Shown one piece after another: positions 9,574 to 50,868 of a stretch of DNA of 64,000 nucleotides. Every line of letters begins with the position of its first letter. The stretch's first letter is position 1. Source of the stretch: Candidatus Omnitrophota bacterium (GTDB lineage Bacteria; Omnitrophota; Gorgyraeia; Pluralincolimonadales; Pluralincolimonadaceae); assembly GCA_030695925.1 (NCBI GenBank), contig JAUYOH010000148.1:1-64000 (forward strand). The letters run 5' to 3'. Position numbers and translations under genes: made by a program. The notes under the pieces are model-generated. The model worked only from the letters and a program-made list of their open reading frames with translations, searched no databases and was not told where the DNA came from.

Positions 9574-11625
9574 TTATTCCTCGATAAGCGCCTTTATCTG
9601 CGGAAGCATACGCTCTGCCTCCTCTTCTCCGCGCTTGATCAAGATCTCGACTTTATACAACTCAAACCAGTTTACGGTCGGGATTATGGGGTGCAAGACG
9701 CAATCCGCTTCTCGCGAAGAGGCCTCGGCAAGGACATACTGCATGGAAAGCGAGGAATTCATCAGGACATCGAGAAAGTTCGGGGTGAACGTCCTGCGTG
9801 TCCAGTTCATAAACCTGAAGAGCGCCCGCGCGAAAATCGAACGCTCCGCCAGTTTAAGTTCCTCTTTCCTGCGTCTCGCCTCGAACTCCTGAAAGGGCTT
9901 TAACATCTCCTCCGGGCTCGGAAGGCAGTTTACGGCGATTATCTTCCTCGCTCCGAGTTTAGCTAAGACATCTATCGGGACCGGGTCAAGCGTCCCGCCG
10001 TCTATCAAAAAATCCTCGTCTTTTCTGTACGGCTTGACTACCGCCGGAATCGAGCATGATGCCCGAAGCGCGTCGACCAGACTTCCCTCATCTATGACGA
10101 CCAATTGTCGCGAACGCAATGTGCTTGATATTATCTTGATCGGGGTATGCGTGTCGTGAAATGTCTTTCTGCCGAGATATTCTCTGAAGAACCTCGTAAG
10201 GTTCCGGCCGTTGATAAACCCCAATAGCGGAAATAAAGAAAAATCCGCCAGACTTAAGAGCATCCTCTTGCTCTTGAACCTAAGCGCGACCTTCTCCAAT
10301 TCCGCCGCCTCTATGCCCGAGGCCCAAAATGCCCCCACCACAGCTCCTATAGACGTGCCGGCGATAAAATCTATCGGGATCTTCTCCCTCTCGAGTACTT
10401 TCATCACACCCACATGCGCGAGGCCCAAGGCAGCGCCGGAACTGAGCGCCAATCCCACGAGGATCTTACCGATATCCCTCGCTATACGACGCACCGTCCT
10501 CGAATATAAACTATCCGGCACCGCCAAAACAGGCGGAAGCCCCATCGACATTATCCCGCCCAAGAGGCCGAGGTCGGGCAGGGTCGTATAAGGTTTGTGG
10601 CCCAATGTTTTAACGCGTTCTTCGAATGTCTTTTCGGCCACAAATTCGTTCATTATTACCTTAAGGCGCGCCTCAAAATCCTTTATGCCCTTGCTTAACT
10701 CGTCTATGAGCCTGCCGGTCGCTTTCAGGTTATGTTCGTCGCAATCCGTCACAAGATGGATCAAATCCGACTGAGTAAGGACCGCGTACATCGCCTTATC
10801 TATCACGATCGGAAGGTCCACGACGATATAATTAAATTCCGCCGCCAGATAACTTAAAAGCGGGCCTAATTGGGTAAGCGCGGATGGGTCATCGCTCTCG
10901 TAGGCGACATTCAAGAGGCAGATGCCGCTCGATTCGACATCCATGATGAGAGGCCTGACTTTCTCGTGGTCAAAGGTCAGCGTCTTTAAGTCGACGTGGA
11001 GCGGCCTTTTACCGGTCCGCAGCATCGAGGCGCATTCTTCGCCTGTCCTGCTCATATCAAGAAGGATGACTTTTTTGCGCGTCTCATAAGCGAGCGCGAT
11101 GGCAAGATTGACCGCGTACATCGTGCGGCCGGCTTTCTTGGCCAGGCCAAATACGGAGATGATCGTGGACTCAAATATGGCTTTTGGCCCCGCGTCTTTC
11201 TTCTTCAAGCGGCGCGATAACGATTGGCTTAATTTAATGGCGAGTTGGGGGATTTCTTTAAGGAGCGTATTAAAATTTCCCTTGTCGATCCTTAGGATCA
11301 GGGCGTCATTTATGATGCGGATTGATGCCGAATGCGGCTCGTTGGTCAAGAGTGATATTATGCCGACGTAATCGCCGCGATGCAGATTGATCAAAGTCCT
11401 CTCGCTGCCGGATGGAGTCTTTACGAATACATTTACCCTGCCGGTTATTATGCAATAAAATGAACTGGGCGGGTCTCCTTCGCGATATAGGATATGGTCT
11501 TTTCTGTATTCGGCTATATAGGATTTCTCTTGGATAAGCTTACGCGCCCCCGCGGATAAGTCCGCGAAGAGGGGTATTTTTTTTATTATAGCCGCTTTGT
11601 CTAAACTAACGTTGGAAGGGCTCAT
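9574..11625 (-). CDS. NTE-like protein: cyclic-nucleotide-binding, MinD/ParA-like and patatin phospholipase domains
   Basis: A 683-residue protein. Residues about 15-140 form a cNMP-binding (CAP_ED) domain (LYREGDPPSSFYCIITGRVNVF). Residues about 154-350 have a MinD/ParA fold (ISVFGLAKKAGRTMYAVNLA, KVILLDMS, NYIVVDLP). Residues about 390-565 form a patatin domain with GTSIG (Ser425) and DGG (Asp542). The P-loop is degenerate: AKKAGRT stands where KGGxGKT is expected, so ATP hydrolysis is doubtful. The patatin oxyanion region reads SSGAALG instead of Gly-rich. The layout recalls neuropathy target esterase, a lysophospholipase with N-terminal cNMP-like domains. A c-di-GMP riboswitch and terminator lie upstream on the same strand. 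Confidence 0.88.
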   Translation of the reverse strand: MSPSNVSLDKAAIIKKIPLFADLSAGARKLIQEKSYIAEYRKDHILYREGDPPSSFYCIITGRVNVFVKTPSGSERTLINLHRGDYVGIISLLTNEPHSASIRIINDALILRIDKGNFNTLLKEIPQLAIKLSQSLSRRLKKKDAGPKAIFESTIISVFGLAKKAGRTMYAVNLAIALAYETRKKVILLDMSRTGEECASMLRTGKRPLHVDLKTLTFDHEKVRPLIMDVESSGICLLNVAYESDDPSALTQLGPLLSYLAAEFNYIVVDLPIVIDKAMYAVLTQSDLIHLVTDCDEHNLKATGRLIDELSKGIKDFEARLKVIMNEFVAEKTFEERVKTLGHKPYTTLPDLGLLGGIMSMGLPPVLAVPDSLYSRTVRRIARDIGKILVGLALSSGAALGLAHVGVMKVLEREKIPIDFIAGTSIGAVVGAFWASGIEAAELEKVALRFKSKRMLLSLADFSLFPLLGFINGRNLTRFFREYLGRKTFHDTHTPIKIISSTLRSRQLVVIDEGSLVDALRASCSIPAVVKPYRKDEDFLIDGGTLDPVPIDVLAKLGARKIIAVNCLPSPEEMLKPFQEFEARRRKEELKLAERSIFARALFRFMNWTRRTFTPNFLDVLMNSSLSMQYVLAEASSREADCVLHPIIPTVNWFELYKVEILIKRGEEEAERMLPQIKALIEE

Positions 11626-11663
11626 TACCTGATATTATATTAGGTTAAAATCAAAATAGCAAG

Positions 11664-11711
11664 CCCCTCACCCTGCCCTCTCCCCAACGGGGAGAGGATT
11701 AAGGTGAGGGG
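11664..11711. repeat. 48-bp inverted repeat, copy 1
   Basis: An imperfect palindrome beginning CCCCTCACCCT and ending AAGGTGAGGGG, with CTCTCCCC and GGGGAGAG as inner arms. A second copy with about 4 mismatches in 48 bp lies at 21333-21380 inside nuoJ. Here it sits between the riboswitch terminator and the patatin gene. Confidence 0.85.
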
Positions 11712-11714
11712 GAC

Positions 11715-11799
11715 AAAAAAAGGCCAGCGGCTTTGAAACTTACTTACTGCTGCTTACTTCTGTGTTCTGCTTGTTTCTTTTCTTACTTCAGCCGCTGGC
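11715..11799 (-). terminator. Rho-independent terminator with a very long loop, downstream of the c-di-GMP riboswitch
   Basis: On the minus strand, GCCAGCGGCT (11790-11799) pairs perfectly with AGCCGCTGGC (11723-11732) and is followed by seven T. The loop is 57 nt and A/G-rich, with repeated AAGTAAG motifs. It is a plausible expression platform for the riboswitch, about 50 nt past the aptamer. Confidence 0.7.
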
Positions 11800-11845
11800 A
11801 ATCCATTTTGTACTTCGACCGATTAGGGAAACAACCTACGCCTTT

Positions 11846-11990
11846 GACCTTTTCTCCGGTTTCGGTAACCCAGCTGCCTTGCCGTGCCACCTGGAATGAC
11901 CTCGGTTTAGGCCTGCGGTTTTGTGTCCCGCCCTTTCGGTCCTGAATGGGATCCCGATATTATCGGGAGCGGTTTACCCTTTTCGGTCAT
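11846..11990 (-). promoter_or_regulatory. Cyclic-di-GMP-I (GEMM-I) riboswitch aptamer
   Basis: Read on the minus strand, the conserved blocks of GEMM-I appear in order: AGGGTAAACC, a GAAA tetraloop arm, GGGACACAAAACC, GGCCTAAACC (tetraloop receptor) and GGGTTACCG. They line up with the Vibrio Vc2 aptamer. The base at the ligand-selecting position (second G of AGGG) appears to be G, favouring c-di-GMP over cGAMP. The P1b arm carries a 29-nt insertion with a palindrome (11952-11968). A possible promoter, TTGATT-16-CATACT, lies just upstream near 11995-12020. The downstream gene on this strand is the cNMP/MinD/patatin gene. Confidence 0.85.
11952..11968. repeat. Short palindrome inserted in riboswitch arm P1b
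   Basis: TCCCGATATTATCGGGA has perfect 8-bp arms around a single base. Removing this and its flank (29 nt in all) leaves a perfect 6-bp helix CCGCCC/GGGCGG closed by GAAA, as expected for P1b. It resembles the short palindromes at 3419 and 53626 in style, not in exact sequence. Confidence 0.7.
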
Positions 11991-41991: not shown

Positions 41992-42019
41992 TCTGACATC
42001 CTCCAGATGCGATAGACAA

Positions 42020-42056
42020 TAAAAAACCTGTCCCCGGCCCAAAGCCGAAAACAGGT
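42020..42056 (-). terminator. Attenuator terminator of the pyr leader
   Basis: On the minus strand, ACCTGT (42051-42056) pairs with ACAGGT (42026-42031), with an inner GC-rich stem (CGGC/GCCG), followed by a run of T. The upstream half, CCTGTTTTCGGC, can instead pair with GCCGGAAAAGG at 42096-42109 to form an antiterminator. Confidence 0.8.
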
Positions 42057-42102
42057 ATAATATTCTCTTTCTTTAAATCTTTTCCGCATTTTCTTCTCCT
42101 TT

Positions 42103-42122
42103 TCCGGCCTCACAGGACCGGA
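42103..42122 (-). promoter_or_regulatory. PyrR-binding anti-antiterminator hairpin
   Basis: The leader contains TCCGGTCCTGTGAGGCCGGA. It fits the PyrR RNA consensus (UCCNGNGAGGY) in the loop, with a TCCGG/CCGGA stem. Binding of PyrR-UMP would hold this hairpin and so free the terminator at 42020-42056. Confidence 0.8.
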
Positions 42123-42146
42123 TTAAAAGGGTGTTGTTGATGTTTA

Positions 42147-42175
42147 AATATAGCATACGGCTATCCCTTTGTCAA
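42147..42175 (-). promoter_or_regulatory. Promoter of the pyr operon
   Basis: TTGACA (42170-42175), a 17-bp spacer and TATATT (42147-42152) on the minus strand. The -35 box overlaps the stop codon of the upstream PilZ-glycosidase gene. The leader to pyrR is about 150 nt. Confidence 0.8.
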
Positions 42176-44289
42176 GGGGTATTCTTTGCCGAATATCCCA
42201 ATGAATCGGTGGGAATAGACTTAAAGAGCTTGGCGACGGCTTCGTAACCAGGCTTTGGTTTCCTGTCCCACGTCAATATCCCCCAGTATTCCTCTATGTG
42301 CTTATCCTGAACAGAGGGGTTGCCGCCTTTCCACCACTCGTCTATCCACTCAAATATAACAACACCGGCTAACTTTTCTCCAACGGCCTTTATTTGCACC
42401 TCGATGGCGTCATCCTGCTTGGCCTTCTTGACAAATGTGCTAAAACCCGTCTCGGTTATGATAACGGGCTTATCATACTTCTTGGAGATATCGGACATCT
42501 GGCTGACCACTTTTGAGGCCAGCGGCTGCCCGCCCCAGCCGAAGCCGTGGCCGCCGACATACGCGTTACATCCGATGACGTCCAGAAAATCAAACCCTAA
42601 GTTATAGCCCTCGACGTTCAATATGTTAGCGGCGGTGACCGGATGAGTCTTATCTGCCTCCTTGACCGCCAGATATATCTCCTTCATGAACTTATTTACG
42701 ACGTCAAAACCATAGCGGGGTATGGGGCTGCCCGATTCCTCGTAGCAAAACGGCGCGTCATTCCATATCAGCCACATCAGTATGCATTTCCTGTTGCTGT
42801 GTTTCTTTACGGTCTCGGCCGCCATCTTCTTTAACGCCTTAAGTTCCACATCCGAGGAATAATCGGTATACGAAGAAGGAGAGACGACCTGTTCTATTAT
42901 CTTTATATCGTACTTCTCCGCTAGATCCAGAAGCGCGTCGGGAAGCGGTTCGTATGTCCTTATGGTATTTATGCCGGATTCCTTCATCATCCTAAAATCG
43001 TTCTCAAAGACAGACATCGGGATCTTGGAGAACGACCCCTCTACCCCCGGCGCAAGGCCGGGCGCGCTTATCCCGTATGCCACGCCCTTTATGAAGAAAA
43101 GTTTCCCGTCCACATAGATCCTCGTGCCCTTTGCGATTATTCCTTTCCCCTCTATCCTCTTTGATATCTCGGCGCCGCCCTTCCCTGCCTCTTTGGTCTC
43201 GCTGGGTTTTTGAACCCGTTCGGTTTTCTGCTCCTCAATCTGCTTTTGTCTTTCTATATCCTTTTGCCGCGCCATCGATAACGCGCGCTCCTCGAGCTTC
43301 AAGCGTTCCTTCGCAAGCTCGACTATTTCCTTGTCACTCGGTGTAGTCATTGAGGCTATAAGATCGCGCCTTAAAGTGATGACTCCGGTGGGGACCTCGA
43401 CCCTGATTGAATTCGCTGATTCAAATACGACCTTACCTATCACGACCCCGCCAGCCGCCAAATTGACCTTAACGGGCTTAGACGCCTTTATTTCCTCTAT
43501 CACCGTCAGCTGCTCTTCAAGCTTCGTCTTCTCCTTTGTGAACTTTTCAAGATCCCTGTTCAATTCGGCGGTCTTGGTCTGCGCCTTTAATAATTCGCCC
43601 TCCAGTTTTACTATCTCCTCCGGTTTTGCCTCGGCTTCGGCCTTCGCGGCCTCCAGCCTTTTCTCCAGATCCGCCCTTTCTTCCTCAAAGACCTTCAGCT
43701 TGGATTCCAAGGCGCTGCGGCTTTGCCTTAAATCCTCCAACGACCGGGAAAGCCCGGAGCGCTCCTCTTCCGCTAAAACCAGTTTCTTCTCGGCCTCCCT
43801 GCGCAAGGCTTCTTTCTTTGAGACCTGAAGAGCGGCGACGGCTATCGCTATAGACAAAACCGCGACCGCGACGACGATCGCTTTCTGCTTGAACCACAAA
43901 ATCCTCGCAAAATTCACGATGCGCCTTCTGTCTCTATCGGCTATCTGTTTATATGAAATGCCTATCAGGAATTTATTGGGATGGTCTTCTTTTGTCTTCT
44001 TGAGCCACGCGGCGTCGGCCTCGGCCGAGATGGGTTTTGCCGAAAACGGCACGTTGATCTGAAGGCGCATCTTCGCGGTCTTATCATTCAGCCTACCAGC
44101 CAACTCGTCCTTGAGGTTATTTATCTCAAGGCATATGCCGCCTTCGCTTACGTCCCGCGTGAAGGACTGATGAAATCCGGATAATACCTCTTTGCCGTCG
44201 GAGCTTACTATCTCTAACTCGACCGGAAAAACGGTATTGAGCCTTATATATCTTCTGCGTTCCGGGCCGCCTTGCTGGCTCTTTTCCAT
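42172..44289 (-). CDS. Transmembrane PilZ / coiled-coil / glycoside hydrolase fusion
   Basis: A 705-residue protein. Residues about 9-125 form a PilZ domain with the c-di-GMP motifs RRRYIR (RxxxR, 12-16) and DVSEGG (DxSxxG, 46-51). Residues about 136-155 are a single membrane helix, and 157-265 a long coiled coil. Residues 272-314 form a small beta module (GVVIGKVVFESANSIRVEVPTGVITLRRD). Residues about 383-695 form a TIM barrel like GH2/GH5 glycosidases (DGKLFFIKGVAYG, SGINTIRTYEP, VIITETGFS with nucleophile Glu613, FEWIDEWW). The usual acid/base NE reads N510-D511. With PilZ inside and the barrel outside the membrane, c-di-GMP could control a glycan enzyme across the membrane. It lies 17 nt after lpxA. 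Confidence 0.85.
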   Translation of the reverse strand: MEKSQQGGPERRRYIRLNTVFPVELEIVSSDGKEVLSGFHQSFTRDVSEGGICLEINNLKDELAGRLNDKTAKMRLQINVPFSAKPISAEADAAWLKKTKEDHPNKFLIGISYKQIADRDRRRIVNFARILWFKQKAIVVAVAVLSIAIAVAALQVSKKEALRREAEKKLVLAEEERSGLSRSLEDLRQSRSALESKLKVFEEERADLEKRLEAAKAEAEAKPEEIVKLEGELLKAQTKTAELNRDLEKFTKEKTKLEEQLTVIEEIKASKPVKVNLAAGGVVIGKVVFESANSIRVEVPTGVITLRRDLIASMTTPSDKEIVELAKERLKLEERALSMARQKDIERQKQIEEQKTERVQKPSETKEAGKGGAEISKRIEGKGIIAKGTRIYVDGKLFFIKGVAYGISAPGLAPGVEGSFSKIPMSVFENDFRMMKESGINTIRTYEPLPDALLDLAEKYDIKIIEQVVSPSSYTDYSSDVELKALKKMAAETVKKHSNRKCILMWLIWNDAPFCYEESGSPIPRYGFDVVNKFMKEIYLAVKEADKTHPVTAANILNVEGYNLGFDFLDVIGCNAYVGGHGFGWGGQPLASKVVSQMSDISKKYDKPVIITETGFSTFVKKAKQDDAIEVQIKAVGEKLAGVVIFEWIDEWWKGGNPSVQDKHIEEYWGILTWDRKPKPGYEAVAKLFKSIPTDSLGYSAKNTP

Positions 44290-44306: not shown

Positions 44307-45092
44307 TTACACGGCCGATTTTCTGTGCTTACAGATCCCGCGTTCCGACGATTTTATGAATTCGACCATATGCTTTGCTTCGTCTGCCAGGTTTCCGGCT
44401 TTCGCGATCTCATCTAGCGCATGAGAGACGTTTAATCCGGAGCGATAGACCAACTTATATATACTCTTTATCTGGGCCTTCGCCTTTTCGCTTATATCCG
44501 ACCTCTTGATTCCCACGATGTTCAGCGAGCACACTTCCGAATTCCCCTCGATAAGCATATACGGTACGACGTCCTTAATTACCCGCGCAAGCCCCCCTAT
44601 CATGGCAAGCGTCCCTATCTTTACAAATTGGTGCGCTGCGGCATTACCCCCTATGAATGTCTTATCTTCCACTACGACATGGCCTGCCAGCAAGACGCCG
44701 TTACATATGACGACGTTATCTCCTATCCGGCAATCATGCGCAATGTGCGAACAGCCCATAAAAAAATTATCGTTACCGATGAGGGTGCTTGCGCCTTCCT
44801 TGAACCCGCGGTGGACGCTTGAATATTCCCTGAACACGTTCCTGTCGCCGGCCTTCAAATAACTCTTGCCTCCCTTAAACTGCAGGTGCTGCGGGATATG
44901 CCCCAATACCGCGCCCATGTGGATTTCGCAATCCTTGCCGATAGTCGTGCCGGAGCATACGTAGGCATGCGCCATCACTTTCGTCCCCTTGCCTATCGTG
45001 ACATCATCCTCGATTATGGCGTACGGACCTATCTCAACTGCGTCTATCTTTGCCTTTTTACTTACGATCGCGGTCGGATGTATCTTCGCCAC
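44307..45092 (-). CDS. lpxA: UDP-N-acetylglucosamine acyltransferase
   Basis: The 261-residue enzyme starts lipid A synthesis by adding a hydroxyacyl chain to UDP-GlcNAc. The left-handed beta-helix hexapeptide repeats run through the first two thirds. Seen are HMGAVLGHIPQHLQFKG, FREYSSVHRGFKEG, CSHIAHDCRIGDNVVICNG (catalytic His) and GGLARVIKDVVPYMLIEGN, with a C-terminal helical part. It starts inside rsmI (35-nt overlap). Other lpx genes are not in the window. Confidence 0.95.
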   Translation of the reverse strand: MAKIHPTAIVSKKAKIDAVEIGPYAIIEDDVTIGKGTKVMAHAYVCSGTTIGKDCEIHMGAVLGHIPQHLQFKGGKSYLKAGDRNVFREYSSVHRGFKEGASTLIGNDNFFMGCSHIAHDCRIGDNVVICNGVLLAGHVVVEDKTFIGGNAAAHQFVKIGTLAMIGGLARVIKDVVPYMLIEGNSEVCSLNIVGIKRSDISEKAKAQIKSIYKLVYRSGLNVSHALDEIAKAGNLADEAKHMVEFIKSSERGICKHRKSAV

Positions 45093-45768
45093 CTGCTGCC
45101 TCCTTGGAGTTTAAGACGACCAAAAATTCCCCTCTTGGCCTTGTCTTCTCGAAATTATTTATTAACACGCTGACTTTATCCCTTAATATCTCCTCAAACT
45201 TCTTTGTGAGTTCGCGCATCACCGAGATACGTATATCGCCCAGTGTTTCAAGTATATCATATAAAGTCCTTAAAATCCTATGCGGAGATTCGTAAAAAAT
45301 AACTGTGCGCTTCTCATCTTTGAACTGTGAAAGCCTCTTTTTTCTCGCCGTTGACTTAGCCGGCAGGAATCCCTCGAATACAAACCTGTCCGTTGGAGCG
45401 CCGGAGACGACCAAGCCCAATACCAAGGCTGTCGGCCCCGGGATTCCGACAACCGGAATAGCGTTTTTTATCGCGAGTCCTATTATATGCGCGCCGGGAT
45501 CAGAGATGCCCGGTGTCCCCGCGTCCGAAACGAGCGCCACACTCTTTCCTTCTTTCAATAGTCTTATCAGGTAATCGCCTTTGGTGATCTTATTGTGCTC
45601 AAAATAGCTCGTAAGCGGGGTCTTGATATCGTAATGGCTTGTCAGTATCTTTGTGTGGCGGGTATCCTCTGCGGCTATCAGATCGACACTCTTTAAGACT
45701 TCGAGGGCCCGAAGAGTTATATCTTTGAGATTTCCGATAGGGGTAGCAACTATATATAGCATGCTCAT
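45058..45768 (-). CDS. rsmI: 16S rRNA (cytidine-1402 2'-O)-methyltransferase
   Basis: A 236-residue SAM-dependent enzyme of the tetrapyrrole-methylase fold. It has LYIVATPIGNLKDITLRALEVL, AAEDTRHT, SDAGTPGISDPG and FYESPHRI, all diagnostic. It modifies the ribosomal decoding centre. It sits 9 nt after the glmS stop. Confidence 0.96.
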   Translation of the reverse strand: MSMLYIVATPIGNLKDITLRALEVLKSVDLIAAEDTRHTKILTSHYDIKTPLTSYFEHNKITKGDYLIRLLKEGKSVALVSDAGTPGISDPGAHIIGLAIKNAIPVVGIPGPTALVLGLVVSGAPTDRFVFEGFLPAKSTARKKRLSQFKDEKRTVIFYESPHRILRTLYDILETLGDIRISVMRELTKKFEEILRDKVSVLINNFEKTRPRGEFLVVLNSKEAAGGEDTSDRDRK

Positions 45769-45777
45769 TACTTGGAA

Positions 45778-47607
45778 CTACTCTACCGTGACTGATTTCG
45801 CTAAATTTCTCGGTTGGTCAACGTCTCTTCCCCTGGCGACCGCGACATGGTACGCCAATAATTGCAGCGGCAAAACCGTCAAAAGAGGCGAGAGGACTTC
45901 CTGTGTCTTGGGGACATATAGGGTAGTGCTGACGTGTTTCTTGATCGAAGAATCACCTTCGCTCACAATCGCTATAATTTTCCCTTCCCGCGCGCGTATC
46001 TCCCGAATATTCGAGAGCATCTTCTCGTAAGTGGGGGCTTGCGGCGCTATCGCGACTACGGCCATATTCTCCTCGATCAAAGCGATCGGCCCATGTTTCA
46101 TCTCGCCGGCGCCGTATCCCTCCGCGTGGATATATGAGATCTCCTTTAGTTTAAGCGCCCCCTCGAGCGCGTTAGGAAAGTTTACGCCGCGCGCGATGTA
46201 CATAAAACACGACAGTTTGGAGTACTTCTTCGCGCAATTCTTTATGGCCTCGGCCTCATCAAGGATCTCATCCATATGTTCCGGGATCATCTCGAACTCA
46301 TTGAGGAGATTCTTCATCTGCCGCCGGCCGAGGAGGCCTTTTATCCCGCCCAGATACAGAGCCAATAAGATAAATGTCGCCACCTGAGCCGTATACGCCT
46401 TTGTCGAGGCCACACCGATCTCGGGGCCGGCATAAGTATATATTACGCCGTCTGACTCCCTGGTGATGGTGGAACCGGCGACATTACAGATAGAGACAAC
46501 TTTGGCGCCGTTCTTCTTCGCTTCCCGCAAGGCCGCTAATGTGTCGGCGGTCTCGCCCGACTGGCTTACGGCAATAAACAGCGTCCTCTTATCCAGGATC
46601 GGGCTTCGGTATCTGAATTCGCTCGAGACATCCACCTCGACAGGTATGCGGGCGAATTTCTCTATCAGATATTCCCCTATCAAGCCGGCGTGATAGGCGG
46701 TGCCGCAGGCCGAGATGATGATATTATCGAACTTTAATAGTTGTTTCGGCGTAAGGTTTATGCCGTCGACCTTCACTTGGCCTTTCCTTACGTTGGTCCT
46801 CGCGGACAGGATCTTATGGATCACACGCGGTTGTTCATATATCTCCTTCAACATAAAATGCGCGAACCCGCCTTTCTCCGCCTGCGAGATATCCCATTCT
46901 ATGGCAGTGGGTTTCCTGTTTACGCGCTTGCCGTTTAAATCCGAGATCTCGATAGAATCTTTTGTCAGGGCTATTACTTCGCGGTCCTCCACAAATATGA
47001 CTTTTCTTGTCTTGTCGAGAATAGCCGGGCAATCGGATGCGAGGAAATTTTCACCCTTTCCCACGCCAACGATAAGCGGGCTGCCGCACTTTGCCCCCAC
47101 AAGTTTATCGGGTTCGTTCGTATGAATAACGGCTATCGCGTATGAGCCGTGCGCGTTTTTCAGGGCGCGCCTGACAGCCGCCTCAAGATTCCCTTTGTAG
47201 TATTTCTCTATCAGATGCGGCAGGACTTCCGTGTCCGTCTCGGACAAAAATTTGTGCCCTTCCTTTTTCAGCTGCGCTTTTAATTCGTCGCAGTTCTCTA
47301 TGATGCCGTTATGGACAAGCGCGATAGCGCCGGTGCAGTCATAATGAGGGTGGGCGTTTATATTATTAGGAATGCCGTGTGTGGCCCATCTGGTATGGGC
47401 GATCCCCAGTGTCCCGTTTATGGAGGTCTTCTTGAGGCAGTCGGATAACCGCTTTATCTTTCCCGCCGTCTTCAGGCGCCTCATGACATTGCCATCTAAA
47501 ACAGCTACCCCGGCCGAATCGTAACCCCTGTATTCAAGCCGCGTAAGGCCTTTTATCAGGATCGGCACCGCTTCATCCTTGCCTACGTATCCGATTATTC
47601 CGCACAT
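45778..47607 (-). CDS. glmS: Glutamine-fructose-6-phosphate aminotransferase
   Basis: The 609-residue enzyme makes glucosamine 6-phosphate for peptidoglycan and lipid A. Its N-terminal glutaminase begins with the catalytic Cys (MCGIIGYVG), with HTRWATHG following. Two SIS isomerase domains follow (ACGTAYHAGLIGEYLIE, SQSGETADTLAALREAK), ending in DQPRNLAKSVTVE. No glmS ribozyme is seen upstream; the preceding gene overlaps its start by 13 nt. With lpxA nearby, it links amino-sugar supply to lipid A. Confidence 0.97.
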   Translation of the reverse strand: MCGIIGYVGKDEAVPILIKGLTRLEYRGYDSAGVAVLDGNVMRRLKTAGKIKRLSDCLKKTSINGTLGIAHTRWATHGIPNNINAHPHYDCTGAIALVHNGIIENCDELKAQLKKEGHKFLSETDTEVLPHLIEKYYKGNLEAAVRRALKNAHGSYAIAVIHTNEPDKLVGAKCGSPLIVGVGKGENFLASDCPAILDKTRKVIFVEDREVIALTKDSIEISDLNGKRVNRKPTAIEWDISQAEKGGFAHFMLKEIYEQPRVIHKILSARTNVRKGQVKVDGINLTPKQLLKFDNIIISACGTAYHAGLIGEYLIEKFARIPVEVDVSSEFRYRSPILDKRTLFIAVSQSGETADTLAALREAKKNGAKVVSICNVAGSTITRESDGVIYTYAGPEIGVASTKAYTAQVATFILLALYLGGIKGLLGRRQMKNLLNEFEMIPEHMDEILDEAEAIKNCAKKYSKLSCFMYIARGVNFPNALEGALKLKEISYIHAEGYGAGEMKHGPIALIEENMAVVAIAPQAPTYEKMLSNIREIRAREGKIIAIVSEGDSSIKKHVSTTLYVPKTQEVLSPLLTVLPLQLLAYHVAVARGRDVDQPRNLAKSVTVE

Positions 47608-48317
47608 ATTTTATATGCGACCTTTCCTTTTGGGGGGTTGCTGCCAAAACATACATCATCTATATAAACCGTCCCTTTATCTATGCCGCGGCCATGCCTG
47701 AAAACAAATACTATTTCCAATATCTTTCCCCAATCGGTAATATTTCTAAATCCAGAAAGAGGTATAACGATCTCCTGCCATTTGCCGCGCATCGTTACAT
47801 CATTATACGATGCTATATCAACGGATGATATTTTATCCTTCCCCATAATATAAGTACCGTCACCGTCCACATCTTGATGTAACTCCACCGCGAAATCTGC
47901 CCCCCCTTGTGGATCCATCAACCAAAATGAAAGATAATCATATCCGCTTAAATCCTTAAAGGCCCTGGCCTCAAATGTCTTGTCACTAAATGCGCCCGCG
48001 TATTCAGTAATTAATTTCGTCCAATAATAAGAAAAGCTATTCGGTGCGCTAACATTGAAATCTAAACGCAGCGAGGAGCCCTTGCCGGCACGTGTCTCTT
48101 CCGGGCTTGTTGCGAAAGTAGGGATACACTTAACTCCGGCCTCCTCGTAACCCTGGGTCTTGCCACCTAAAAGATTAAACATCTTTCCCTGATTAAAATC
48201 ATCTACCATAAAAATGCTGCCCTCTTGACTTGATAAAACGGCGCCAGAAGATGCCGGTTGAACAATCGCGACTACGACAAAGAAAATAATAAATAAAAAA
48301 ATCTTCTTCATACACAT
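47595..48317 (-). CDS. Secreted galactose-binding-like (CIA30/CBM-like) protein 1
   Basis: A 240-residue protein with a signal peptide (to about residue 25). The mature part resembles a beta jelly-roll of the CIA30 or family-11 carbohydrate-binding type: MVDDFNQGKMFNLLGG, LRLDFNVSAPNSFSYYW, YDYLSFWLMDPQG, GKWQEIVIPLSGF and VYIDDVCFG. Similar domains bind sugars or other ligands on secreted proteins. GGAG lies 8 nt before the ATG. It is a distant paralogue of the next gene upstream and overlaps glmS. The ligand is unknown. Confidence 0.7.
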   Translation of the reverse strand: MCMKKIFLFIIFFVVVAIVQPASSGAVLSSQEGSIFMVDDFNQGKMFNLLGGKTQGYEEAGVKCIPTFATSPEETRAGKGSSLRLDFNVSAPNSFSYYWTKLITEYAGAFSDKTFEARAFKDLSGYDYLSFWLMDPQGGADFAVELHQDVDGDGTYIMGKDKISSVDIASYNDVTMRGKWQEIVIPLSGFRNITDWGKILEIVFVFRHGRGIDKGTVYIDDVCFGSNPPKGKVAYKICAE

Positions 48318-48331
48318 CTGGCGGTCTCCTT

Positions 48332-48952
48332 CTATTGGGCCCGCTCCTTCGAGGAGAACTTGATGTCATCTACATACAAGATGCCATTTTTGCGCGTCAC
48401 GGTTAAGTCATCGAAGGTAAATACAAGCTCCTTCGTCTTTGACCAGTCCGATATAGAGCCGGGGGCCTTCAGCTCTTTCATCGGAATAACGACCCGCTGC
48501 CATTGATCCGTAATGCCCTTTACTATACAGACGACGCGCTCCCCCTTGGCATTCTTAAGTTCCAGCTTAAATTGTGTTGTAAAACCGGCCTCCTCGTCAC
48601 CTTTTATCAACATACTCATCTCGTCGTAAGAACTCAGGTCCGTATTATTAAGCCCGATCCAGATTCCGTTAAAGGCGGGCTCGGTTGATTCCACATCGTA
48701 GGAAATCTTTAACACGTTGGTCTGGGTCGGGTTGCCCATGACTCCGGGCATAAGGATGACATCCATTTTACAGCCCTGCGTTGTATCAAGCGGGTTTGAG
48801 TCCCAAGTACCTACGCCTCCGCCAACGTCACTGTTGCCGCCGGTTCCAAAGCTCGCTATCATCAGGTCAGCAGCGAATAAAGGCCCACTAAAAATAATTG
48901 TGGCACATAAAAATATGAGTGAAAAAGCCGGGGATATCTTTCTGTTTTTCAT
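48332..48952 (-). CDS. Secreted galactose-binding-like (CIA30/CBM-like) protein 2
   Basis: The start is placed at ATG 48952 (MKNRKISPAF), with SD GGGAGG upstream; the track's start at 48991 reads through a tRNA fragment. A signal peptide is followed by a jelly-roll-like sequence: VLKISYDVESTEPAFNGIWIGL, YDEMSMLIKGD, QWQRVVIPMKEL and LYVDDIKFSSK. Length is about 206 residues. It is a paralogue of 47595-48317, 14 nt apart. Function unknown; a sugar-binding or surface role is inference. Confidence 0.7.
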   Translation of the reverse strand: MKNRKISPAFSLIFLCATIIFSGPLFAADLMIASFGTGGNSDVGGGVGTWDSNPLDTTQGCKMDVILMPGVMGNPTQTNVLKISYDVESTEPAFNGIWIGLNNTDLSSYDEMSMLIKGDEEAGFTTQFKLELKNAKGERVVCIVKGITDQWQRVVIPMKELKAPGSISDWSKTKELVFTFDDLTVTRKNGILYVDDIKFSSKERAQ

Positions 48953-48977
48953 GCCTCGCCTCCCTTTAATTCTTAAT

Positions 48978-49002
48978 TCTGGCGTCCCCACGGGGATTCG
49001 AA
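48978..49002 (-). repeat. 25-bp copy of the tRNA-Glu 3' end (att-like direct repeat)
   Basis: Identical over 25 bp to 49693-49717, which covers the T-arm, 3' acceptor strand and CCA of tRNA-Glu plus 2 bp beyond. The two copies flank a 690-bp segment with three small membrane-protein genes. Such direct repeats of tRNA 3' ends are what tyrosine-recombinase integration leaves behind. Confidence 0.85.
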
Positions 49003-49779: not shown

Positions 49780-50868
49780 TCATTCTCCTACCATATCCTT
49801 CACGTCCATCTTCTTTAAATACTCGACCCACGCCCTATCCAGGGCACCTATATTATCAAAACCATATACCTCAAAGAGCGAATTCTCGAACCCTTTCCCT
49901 TTTCTTAAATTATAATTAAATTCCTTAAATCTATCCTTACCTTTATCTCGCGCCAAAAAATACACTACACTCAGCCCGTCTTCGTAATTATGCTCGTAGG
50001 AATCATTGTTTGGGCTCAATAACGGGATGTGCTGGTTATTCATGGCCCTGAACCTGGAATTAGATATATCTCTCCTTGCCTCTCCGGTAGTCAAAAGGGC
50101 GTATTGTGCGATGCCCTCTGACCACCATCTCGGGATATTCGCCTCCTTCGTAAGCTCTCTGTATATCTCGTGCGCTATTTCGTGATAGATGACATCGGTC
50201 TTCATATACAGTTCGTAAAAAAAGACTCTTCTGTTTCCGGCCGCGAATGCCATCAGGGTATCGGGGTTAAAGCCTCGCGCCTGCGCGGCTTTCTTCCAAC
50301 TGGCGAAATCCCCGTATGAGTAAAATTTGAACTTCAGATCCCAATCCGGAGAGGCCGACTCATCGTAAATCTTAAACTCTTCATATCCGAATTTATCGGC
50401 GACCCTTTTACAATAATCCCCGACTTTTCCTTTCAACCGGCCCCTTACGATACCTTCATCGTGATGAAAGGCTATAAAGGCGTCTTCCTCGTAGATCTGC
50501 CATGGCTTGTCCGAATACCTGACCGTATCGGAGAATTTCAGCTCTTCATCGCGGCCCTGCGAACTCCCGTCCGAAGCGGAAGAGGCGCTCCATTTTTCCG
50601 TAAGGGCGCCATTCTCCTGCCTGCTCCATTTTTTGATATACTTTAAATCCGATCTCTTAAACGTCATCGTCCCTTCTTTGAGGCGAACGGTAACGCTGGA
50701 AGGCGACTGGTTTACGATTACCCCTTCATAGTGCTTTCCGTCTGAGGTCGCTAATTCATCTGCTAAAACGGGAATGACGACGCCGGATAATATTAGAAAG
50801 AGCGGGACTGTCGCATATCTTGAAAAATTACTTTTCCTCTCCACTTTCCTCTTCTTCCTCCGCGACAA
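49780..50868 (-). CDS. Exported peptidase MA-like metalloprotease (gluzincin)
   Basis: The 362-residue protein has a membrane or signal segment at about residues 18-36, then a small beta module ([38 protein letters not shown]) like that in the PilZ-glycosidase. The C-terminal half has HEIAH ([14 protein letters not shown]) with [10 protein letters not shown] downstream for the third zinc ligand. Substrate unknown. The track's ATG at 50868 overlaps gyrA by 41 nt; an in-frame GTG 24 nt later (50844) is an alternative start just before the signal segment. tRNA-Glu follows after 8 nt. Confidence 0.8.

Follow-up and report, generated by a model that had tools for sequence, protein, structure and literature searches.

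An open reading frame in a 64,000-nucleotide stretch of Candidatus Omnitrophota DNA (contig JAUYOH010000148.1, hereafter the window) encodes a 705-residue protein in which an N-terminal PilZ domain, a single membrane helix, a helical stalk, a small beta-barrel and a clan GH-A glycosidase barrel are joined in one chain (Table 1). Our leading interpretation, held with moderate confidence, is that this protein is a one-piece transmembrane c-di-GMP receptor relaying its signal inside-out to a glycan-active head. It belongs to a family, apparently undescribed and spread across Omnitrophota, whose members share the PilZ-TM-coiled-coil stalk but differ in the head outside the membrane.

Table 1. Coordinates of the PilZ-glycosidase gene, its encoded features and its neighbors (positions in the window)
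Feature	Position	Strand	Evidence	Remark
PilZ - TM - coiled coil - beta-barrel - clan GH-A barrel gene	42172-44289	-	ORF, Pfam, AlphaFold2, orthologues	705 aa
PilZ domain, residues 10-127	43909-44262	-	Pfam PF07238, E 3.4e-6; AlphaFold2 pLDDT mostly >90	
RxxxR motif, R12-R16	44242-44256	-	Invariant in 12/12 aligned; 36/36 tree rows by pattern	
DxSxxG motif, D46-G51	44137-44154	-	[D/N]x[S/G]xxG in 34/36 by pattern	
Single membrane helix, residues 138-156	43822-43878	-	Hydropathy scan; within modelled helix 118-218	
Helical coiled-coil stalk, residues 157-269	43483-43821	-	AlphaFold2 helices; hydrophobic period 102.5 degrees; weak coiled-coil HMM matches	
Small beta-barrel, residues 273-315	43345-43473	-	AlphaFold2 pLDDT about 90; recurs in exported relatives	
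Clan GH-A (beta/alpha)8 barrel, residues 384-691	42217-43140	-	Pfam PF02836, E 9e-10; Foldseek GH2, GH157	
Asp511, acid/base position (ND)	42757-42759	-	ND in 24/24 clade rows; NE in 148 relatives	
Glu613, nucleophile position	42451-42453	-	Glu in all 24 ND-clade members; aligns with LaGH157 E224	
lpxA-like acyltransferase, upstream neighbor	44307-45092	-	ORF, name read from translation	17 bp from gene
rsmI	45058-45768		ORF, name read from translation	Above lpxA
glmS	45778-47607		ORF, name read from translation	Above rsmI
PyrR-type leader of downstream pyr operon	42019-42134	-	RF00515, 53.3 bits (gathering 54); fold z -4.2	
Promoter-like site before pyr operon	42147-42175	-	11/12 matches, 17-nt spacer	

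Domain architecture

An earlier note on this DNA had proposed a gene with exactly these coordinates, which the open reading frame confirms, and a protein ordered as PilZ domain, one membrane crossing, coiled coil and glycosidase barrel. Pfam, hydropathy and structure prediction all bear out this order. Only two Pfam families score above their gathering cut-offs in the protein, PilZ and the Glyco_hydro_2_C TIM barrel (residues 390 to 662), and a hydropathy scan detects a single hydrophobic segment. The AlphaFold2 model, built from a 35-row alignment, has a mean pLDDT of 84, with the PilZ domain and the glycosidase barrel mostly above 90. In this model, one helix runs unbroken from the end of the PilZ domain across the membrane, then resumes at residues 223 to 269. 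Hydrophobic residues along the stalk recur with a heptad-range period (shuffle p 0.08 for residues 160 to 268, 0.01 for residues 223 to 268), which gives moderate support for a coiled coil. The beta-barrel that follows the stalk had been missed by the earlier note.

The PilZ domain and c-di-GMP signaling in the host

The PilZ fold contains both motifs expected of a PilZ c-di-GMP receptor, RxxxR and [D/N]xSxxG, here as R12xxxR16 and D46xS48xxG51. The motifs had been described as intact, and they are so in the sequence and across relatives, as pattern matching over the 36 sampled PilZ rows of the stalk-family tree indicates (Table 1). The G012 orthologue, like some others, has Gly in place of Ser48. 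The nearest solved chain for the PilZ set is Bacillus subtilis YpfA (5vx6, profile E 5e-5).

The host's own genome yields 8 GGDEF and 9 PilZ matches, and the window holds a c-di-GMP-I riboswitch at 11861-11988 (-) (57.1 bits; within 9574-11988 (-)); the ligand is therefore probably made, and judging from these genes a c-di-GMP circuit exists in the genome. From the present protein together with this riboswitch at 11.9 kb, broad c-di-GMP control of the envelope had been proposed. The riboswitch is real, but it precedes the gene for a 683-residue cyclic-nucleotide-binding/patatin phospholipase, and so attests to signaling in the cell and not to a shared envelope program.

The glycosidase head and the ND clade

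The best PDB sequence match of the barrel is LaGH157 (E 3.7e-11, about 20% identity), which its laminari-oligosaccharide complexes suggest to be an endo-beta-1,3-glucanase; the best Foldseek fold matches are GH2 (6ncw, E 9e-16) and GH157 (9fz9, E 7e-15). Sequence and fold thus indicate distant homology to GH157. Of the earlier label 'GH2/GH5-like', the glycosidase barrel and the nearness to GH2 stand; the GH5 assignment is rejected, since the nearest barrels belong to GH2 and GH157 of clan GH-A. PF02836 is the sole GH2 match in Pfam, and the sugar-binding and Ig-like domains that precede the barrel in GH2 are absent.

The (beta/alpha)8 barrel carries the clan GH-A set of Arg, Asn before the acid/base, Tyr, nucleophile Glu and Trp. 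The acid/base Glu itself is replaced by Asp511, invariant in the clade, so that the site reads ND (N510-D511) instead of NE, as had been noted. We know of no characterized GH-A family with Asp at this position. The barrel collection comprises 175 distinct segments, of which 24 read ND, 148 read NE and three are misaligned or odd. All 24 ND segments form one clade (SH-aLRT 97, in a quick tree with some long branches) that reaches down to 32% identity with the window protein, and within it the PilZ-fused members make up one group (support 91) among exported proteins. R444 and Glu613 are kept in every ND row that covers them, and Y577 and W648 in most; apart from the Glu-to-Asp change, the active-site set is kept. 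ND throughout the clade, with R444 and Glu613 retained, points to an old, selected trait. A degenerate enzyme arising by local mutation is rejected by the clade-wide distribution, and altered chemistry seems more likely than decay. Small stand-alone PilZ-like genes lie near exported PilZ-less ND-barrel genes in two loci (L085, 7669-8091; L086, 11692-12114).

Topology and the beta-barrel

An N-terminal hydrophobic stretch, either signal peptide or anchor, is present in all 12 complete PilZ-less ND relatives and indicates that the barrel is extracytoplasmic. Across the wider family, the N-terminal flank of the membrane helix mostly carries a charge of +4 to +7 with few or no acidic residues, and the C-terminal flank mostly +2 to +4 with acidic residues. 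In the window protein the two flanks are similar (net +4 versus +3) and do not settle the topology alone. Taken together, the exported barrel relatives, the flank charges of the family and the lack of a second membrane segment place the PilZ domain inside and the enzyme outside, supporting a predicted N-in/C-out topology and with it the earlier proposal that the two ends lie on opposite sides.

The beta-barrel occupies the equivalent place, behind the signal peptide, in exported proteins of loci L085, L086 and L089. It precedes the glycosidase barrel in 3 of the 12 complete PilZ-less ND proteins (Omnitrophota, Auribacterota) and is also found in two Auribacterota PilZ proteins. The L086 copy matches NF047433 (E 9.5e-11, just under its cut-off); the domain of the window protein itself falls in no firm family. 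Elsewhere in the window, a peptidase MA protein (49780-50868 (-)) has an N-terminal beta-domain resembling residues 273 to 315, which is found too in exported ND barrels.

A wider stalk family with varied heads

A profile search (E<=1e-25) finds matches in 147 of 384 sampled Omnitrophota genomes. The complete architecture is seen in a handful of them, and a few consist of the ND barrel alone; almost all the rest span only residues 3 to 270 or so, in open frames mostly of 610 to 730 codons. In those read, the commonest remainder behind the PilZ-TM-coiled-coil stalk is an all-helical head (alignment A4). Its model, built on four sequences and weak in parts, resembles (alpha/alpha)6 sugar enzymes (MmpH, GH76, GH88 and epimerases; E about 1e-6 to 1e-4). 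For one such head, a direct PDB sequence search matched nothing and a profile gave a weak GH76 hit. Two stalk proteins end in a short TPR-like part. Auribacterota have (alpha/alpha)6-headed members as well as two PilZ-TM-coiled coil-beta domain proteins with a further head that bears no Pfam name. Among the hits of the orthologue search, the window's family has no (alpha/alpha)6-headed PilZ protein; this is consistent with a head swap, although absence from draft genomes weighs little.

When loci of the (alpha/alpha)6-headed gene are compared, 8 of 16 (one truncated by a contig end) are of the glucan type and the others are not, so that a constant place within a glucan operon is rejected. In several genomes it sits among genes for a sugar ABC importer, NE barrels, CBM-like proteins, GH94/GH149-like phosphorylases and GH116, a setting that ties the stalk to glycan work. 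Loci L038 and L040 combine an ABC sugar importer, two types of GH-A barrel, CBM-like proteins and GH94/GH149-like phosphorylases or GH116 with a PilZ-TM protein mid-locus, and look like c-di-GMP-linked glucan loci. A lipoprotein-like TPR-DUF3857-transglutaminase protein of ~790 residues adjoins the (alpha/alpha)6-headed PilZ gene in L050 (6218-8656), L051, L053, L057 and L215 (Pfam assignment for the L050 copy only) and is a candidate partner of its product. In L214 (3835-6936, genome G203), a 1033-residue protein reads as a membrane peptidase (HExxH-type) ahead of PilZ-TM-coiled coil-(alpha/alpha)6; a membrane protein similar to this peptidase part is encoded beside the PilZ gene in L054 and L057.

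Conservation and genomic neighborhood

Full-length orthologues occur in seven other Candidatus Omnitrophota genomes from two families, at 44-87% identity: G001, G002, G003, G005, G007 and G008 belong to the family of the window's genome (G000), and G012, at 44-45%, to another. The dN/dS ratio is about 0.06-0.2 in the PilZ and glycosidase domains and low in the beta-barrel, values that suggest purifying selection on all three; constraint is weaker in the short TM segment. All five same-family neighborhoods compared have the order glmS-rsmI-lpxA-[gene]-pyrR-pyrB-pyrC, as far as contigs and ORF calls show, and the G012 orthologue is flanked by tilS and ftsH (names read from translations). Orthology and synteny reject chance or mis-assembly as the origin of the fusion.

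The strong promoter-like site before the pyr operon overlaps the 3' end of the PilZ-glycosidase gene. Together with the PyrR-type leader ahead of pyrR, it suggests that the gene closes its transcription unit, probably as the last member of glmS-rsmI-lpxA. The leader itself is an instance of a PyrR attenuator-like element in Omnitrophota. No obvious polymer synthase partner is found among the housekeeping neighbors in the window. Two exported CBM30-like proteins are encoded at 47595-48991 (-); across the window's family the second retains its place between glmS and gyrA.

Proposed mechanism and alternatives

In the mechanism we favor, the cytoplasmic PilZ domain would bind c-di-GMP through R12/R16 and D46/S48. 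Its C-terminal helix, modelled as continuous through the membrane, would enter a stalk that is probably dimeric, and ligand binding would alter the packing or register of this stalk and with it how the periplasmic head is posed, paired or accessed. By its fold and active-site residues the head is a putative clan GH-A beta-glycan enzyme of the ND clade. The exchange of the catalytic Glu for Asp may leave little or no hydrolysis, and the head probably hydrolyzes slowly or transglycosylates, with an envelope or matrix polymer of the beta-glucan type as its substrate. The protein would be one member of a modular family whose stalk bears varied extracytoplasmic heads.

The main rival, which we consider unlikely, is that c-di-GMP makes the PilZ domain dock on a cytoplasmic or inner-membrane partner (a glycosyltransferase or an envelope machine) and that the stalk merely places an always-active glycan enzyme, much like the clearing enzymes of polysaccharide export complexes. 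Soluble PilZ proteins commonly act by docking, and heads that vary widely on a conserved stalk suit a placing device. Alg44, moreover, works inside a polymerization and export complex (PMC3815931, PMC4443731). However, neither in the window's family nor in G012 do the compared neighborhoods link the gene to a synthase, and the continuity of PilZ and TM helices in the model suits a direct relay.

More doubtful still is a head that binds glycans but, owing to ND, no longer catalyzes: a pseudo-enzyme serving as ligand sensor or lectin, perhaps with outside-in signaling to PilZ. The acid/base change is indeed fixed throughout the clade; yet a barrel that served for binding alone should have lost some of the residues that are always (R444, E613) or nearly always (Y577, W648) kept, and free exported clade members adjoin GH94 and sugar-binding proteins. 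Least probable is a PilZ domain serving as a structural cap, without c-di-GMP binding, on a constitutive membrane-anchored glycosidase: some PilZ domains do not bind c-di-GMP and Ser48 is not invariant, but the motifs found in all or nearly all sampled PilZ rows, the low PilZ dN/dS and YpfA as the nearest solved sequence all speak against it.

Direct relay to the head could extend to the whole family. We tentatively suggest, as a possibility below the single-protein reading in confidence, a modular class in Omnitrophota and Auribacterota in which the PilZ-TM-coiled-coil stalk directly gates interchangeable, mostly glycan-enzyme heads, among them a GH-A clade with Asp in the acid/base role. Known outputs of c-di-GMP are synthases, motors, transcription and, by way of LapD, a periplasmic protease; a receptor fused directly to an extracytoplasmic glycan enzyme would, if confirmed, be a new output. 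It would also give a concrete c-di-GMP circuit to Omnitrophota, a phylum seen mainly through metagenomes, and provide a natural swappable sensor stalk with which to study the way a cytoplasmic ligand makes itself felt across the membrane via one helix per subunit. In the ND clade, catalysis could be studied with Asp at a position normally taken by Glu.

Comparison with known systems

A non-exhaustive literature search found no paper on a PilZ domain fused to a glycosidase, on PilZ proteins of Omnitrophota, or joining this phylum with c-di-GMP; PilZ and Omnitrophota co-occur only as single mentions. The earlier statement that no protein with this order has been described holds, as far as searched, for PilZ plus glycosidase, whereas a PilZ-TM-periplasmic arrangement (Alg44) and an inside-out relay (LapD) are both known.

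The PilZ domain has arginine and D/NxSxxG motifs equal to those of B. subtilis YpfA and YcgR-like receptors. YpfA is soluble, with neither the membrane helix nor the enzyme head found here. The head shares the clan GH-A barrel and an aligned nucleophile Glu with LaGH157 (9fz9, 9g4n) and GH2 TIM barrels; unlike these, it has Asp as acid/base, lacks the sugar-binding and Ig-like domains of GH2, and follows a PilZ-TM-coiled coil.

In Alg44, the Pseudomonas alginate co-polymerase, a cytoplasmic PilZ domain is joined to a transmembrane region and, in the periplasm, a MexA-like part (PMC3815931); mutants of the Alg44 PilZ motifs have been described (PMC12564702). The window protein resembles it in its N-terminal PilZ domain with R-R and D-S residues, its one membrane region and, by predicted topology, its periplasmic output domain (PMC12564702, PMC3815931). 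The periplasmic part of the polysaccharide-linked Alg44 is not an enzyme; here a coiled coil, a beta-barrel and a GH-A barrel take its place, and no MexA-like membrane-fusion domain is matched by Pfam in the 705 residues. Alg44 works with the Alg8 synthase of its operon, whereas no synthase, alg8 or alginate operon lies near the present gene, in either the glmS-rsmI-lpxA/pyr or the tilS/ftsH setting.

LapD set the paradigm of inside-out c-di-GMP signaling (PMC3032545), and both systems pair cytoplasmic c-di-GMP sensing with a periplasmic readout across one membrane (PMC3032545, PMC3032553). LapD does so with a degenerate EAL sensor, a HAMP domain and a periplasmic output domain that holds the separate protease LapG; in the window protein, degenerate EAL, GGDEF and HAMP domains do not reach the Pfam cut-off, and PilZ is fused to the output domain itself. 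Membership in either the Alg44 or the LapD group is thus rejected on domains. Neither of these proteins has an enzyme as its own output domain.
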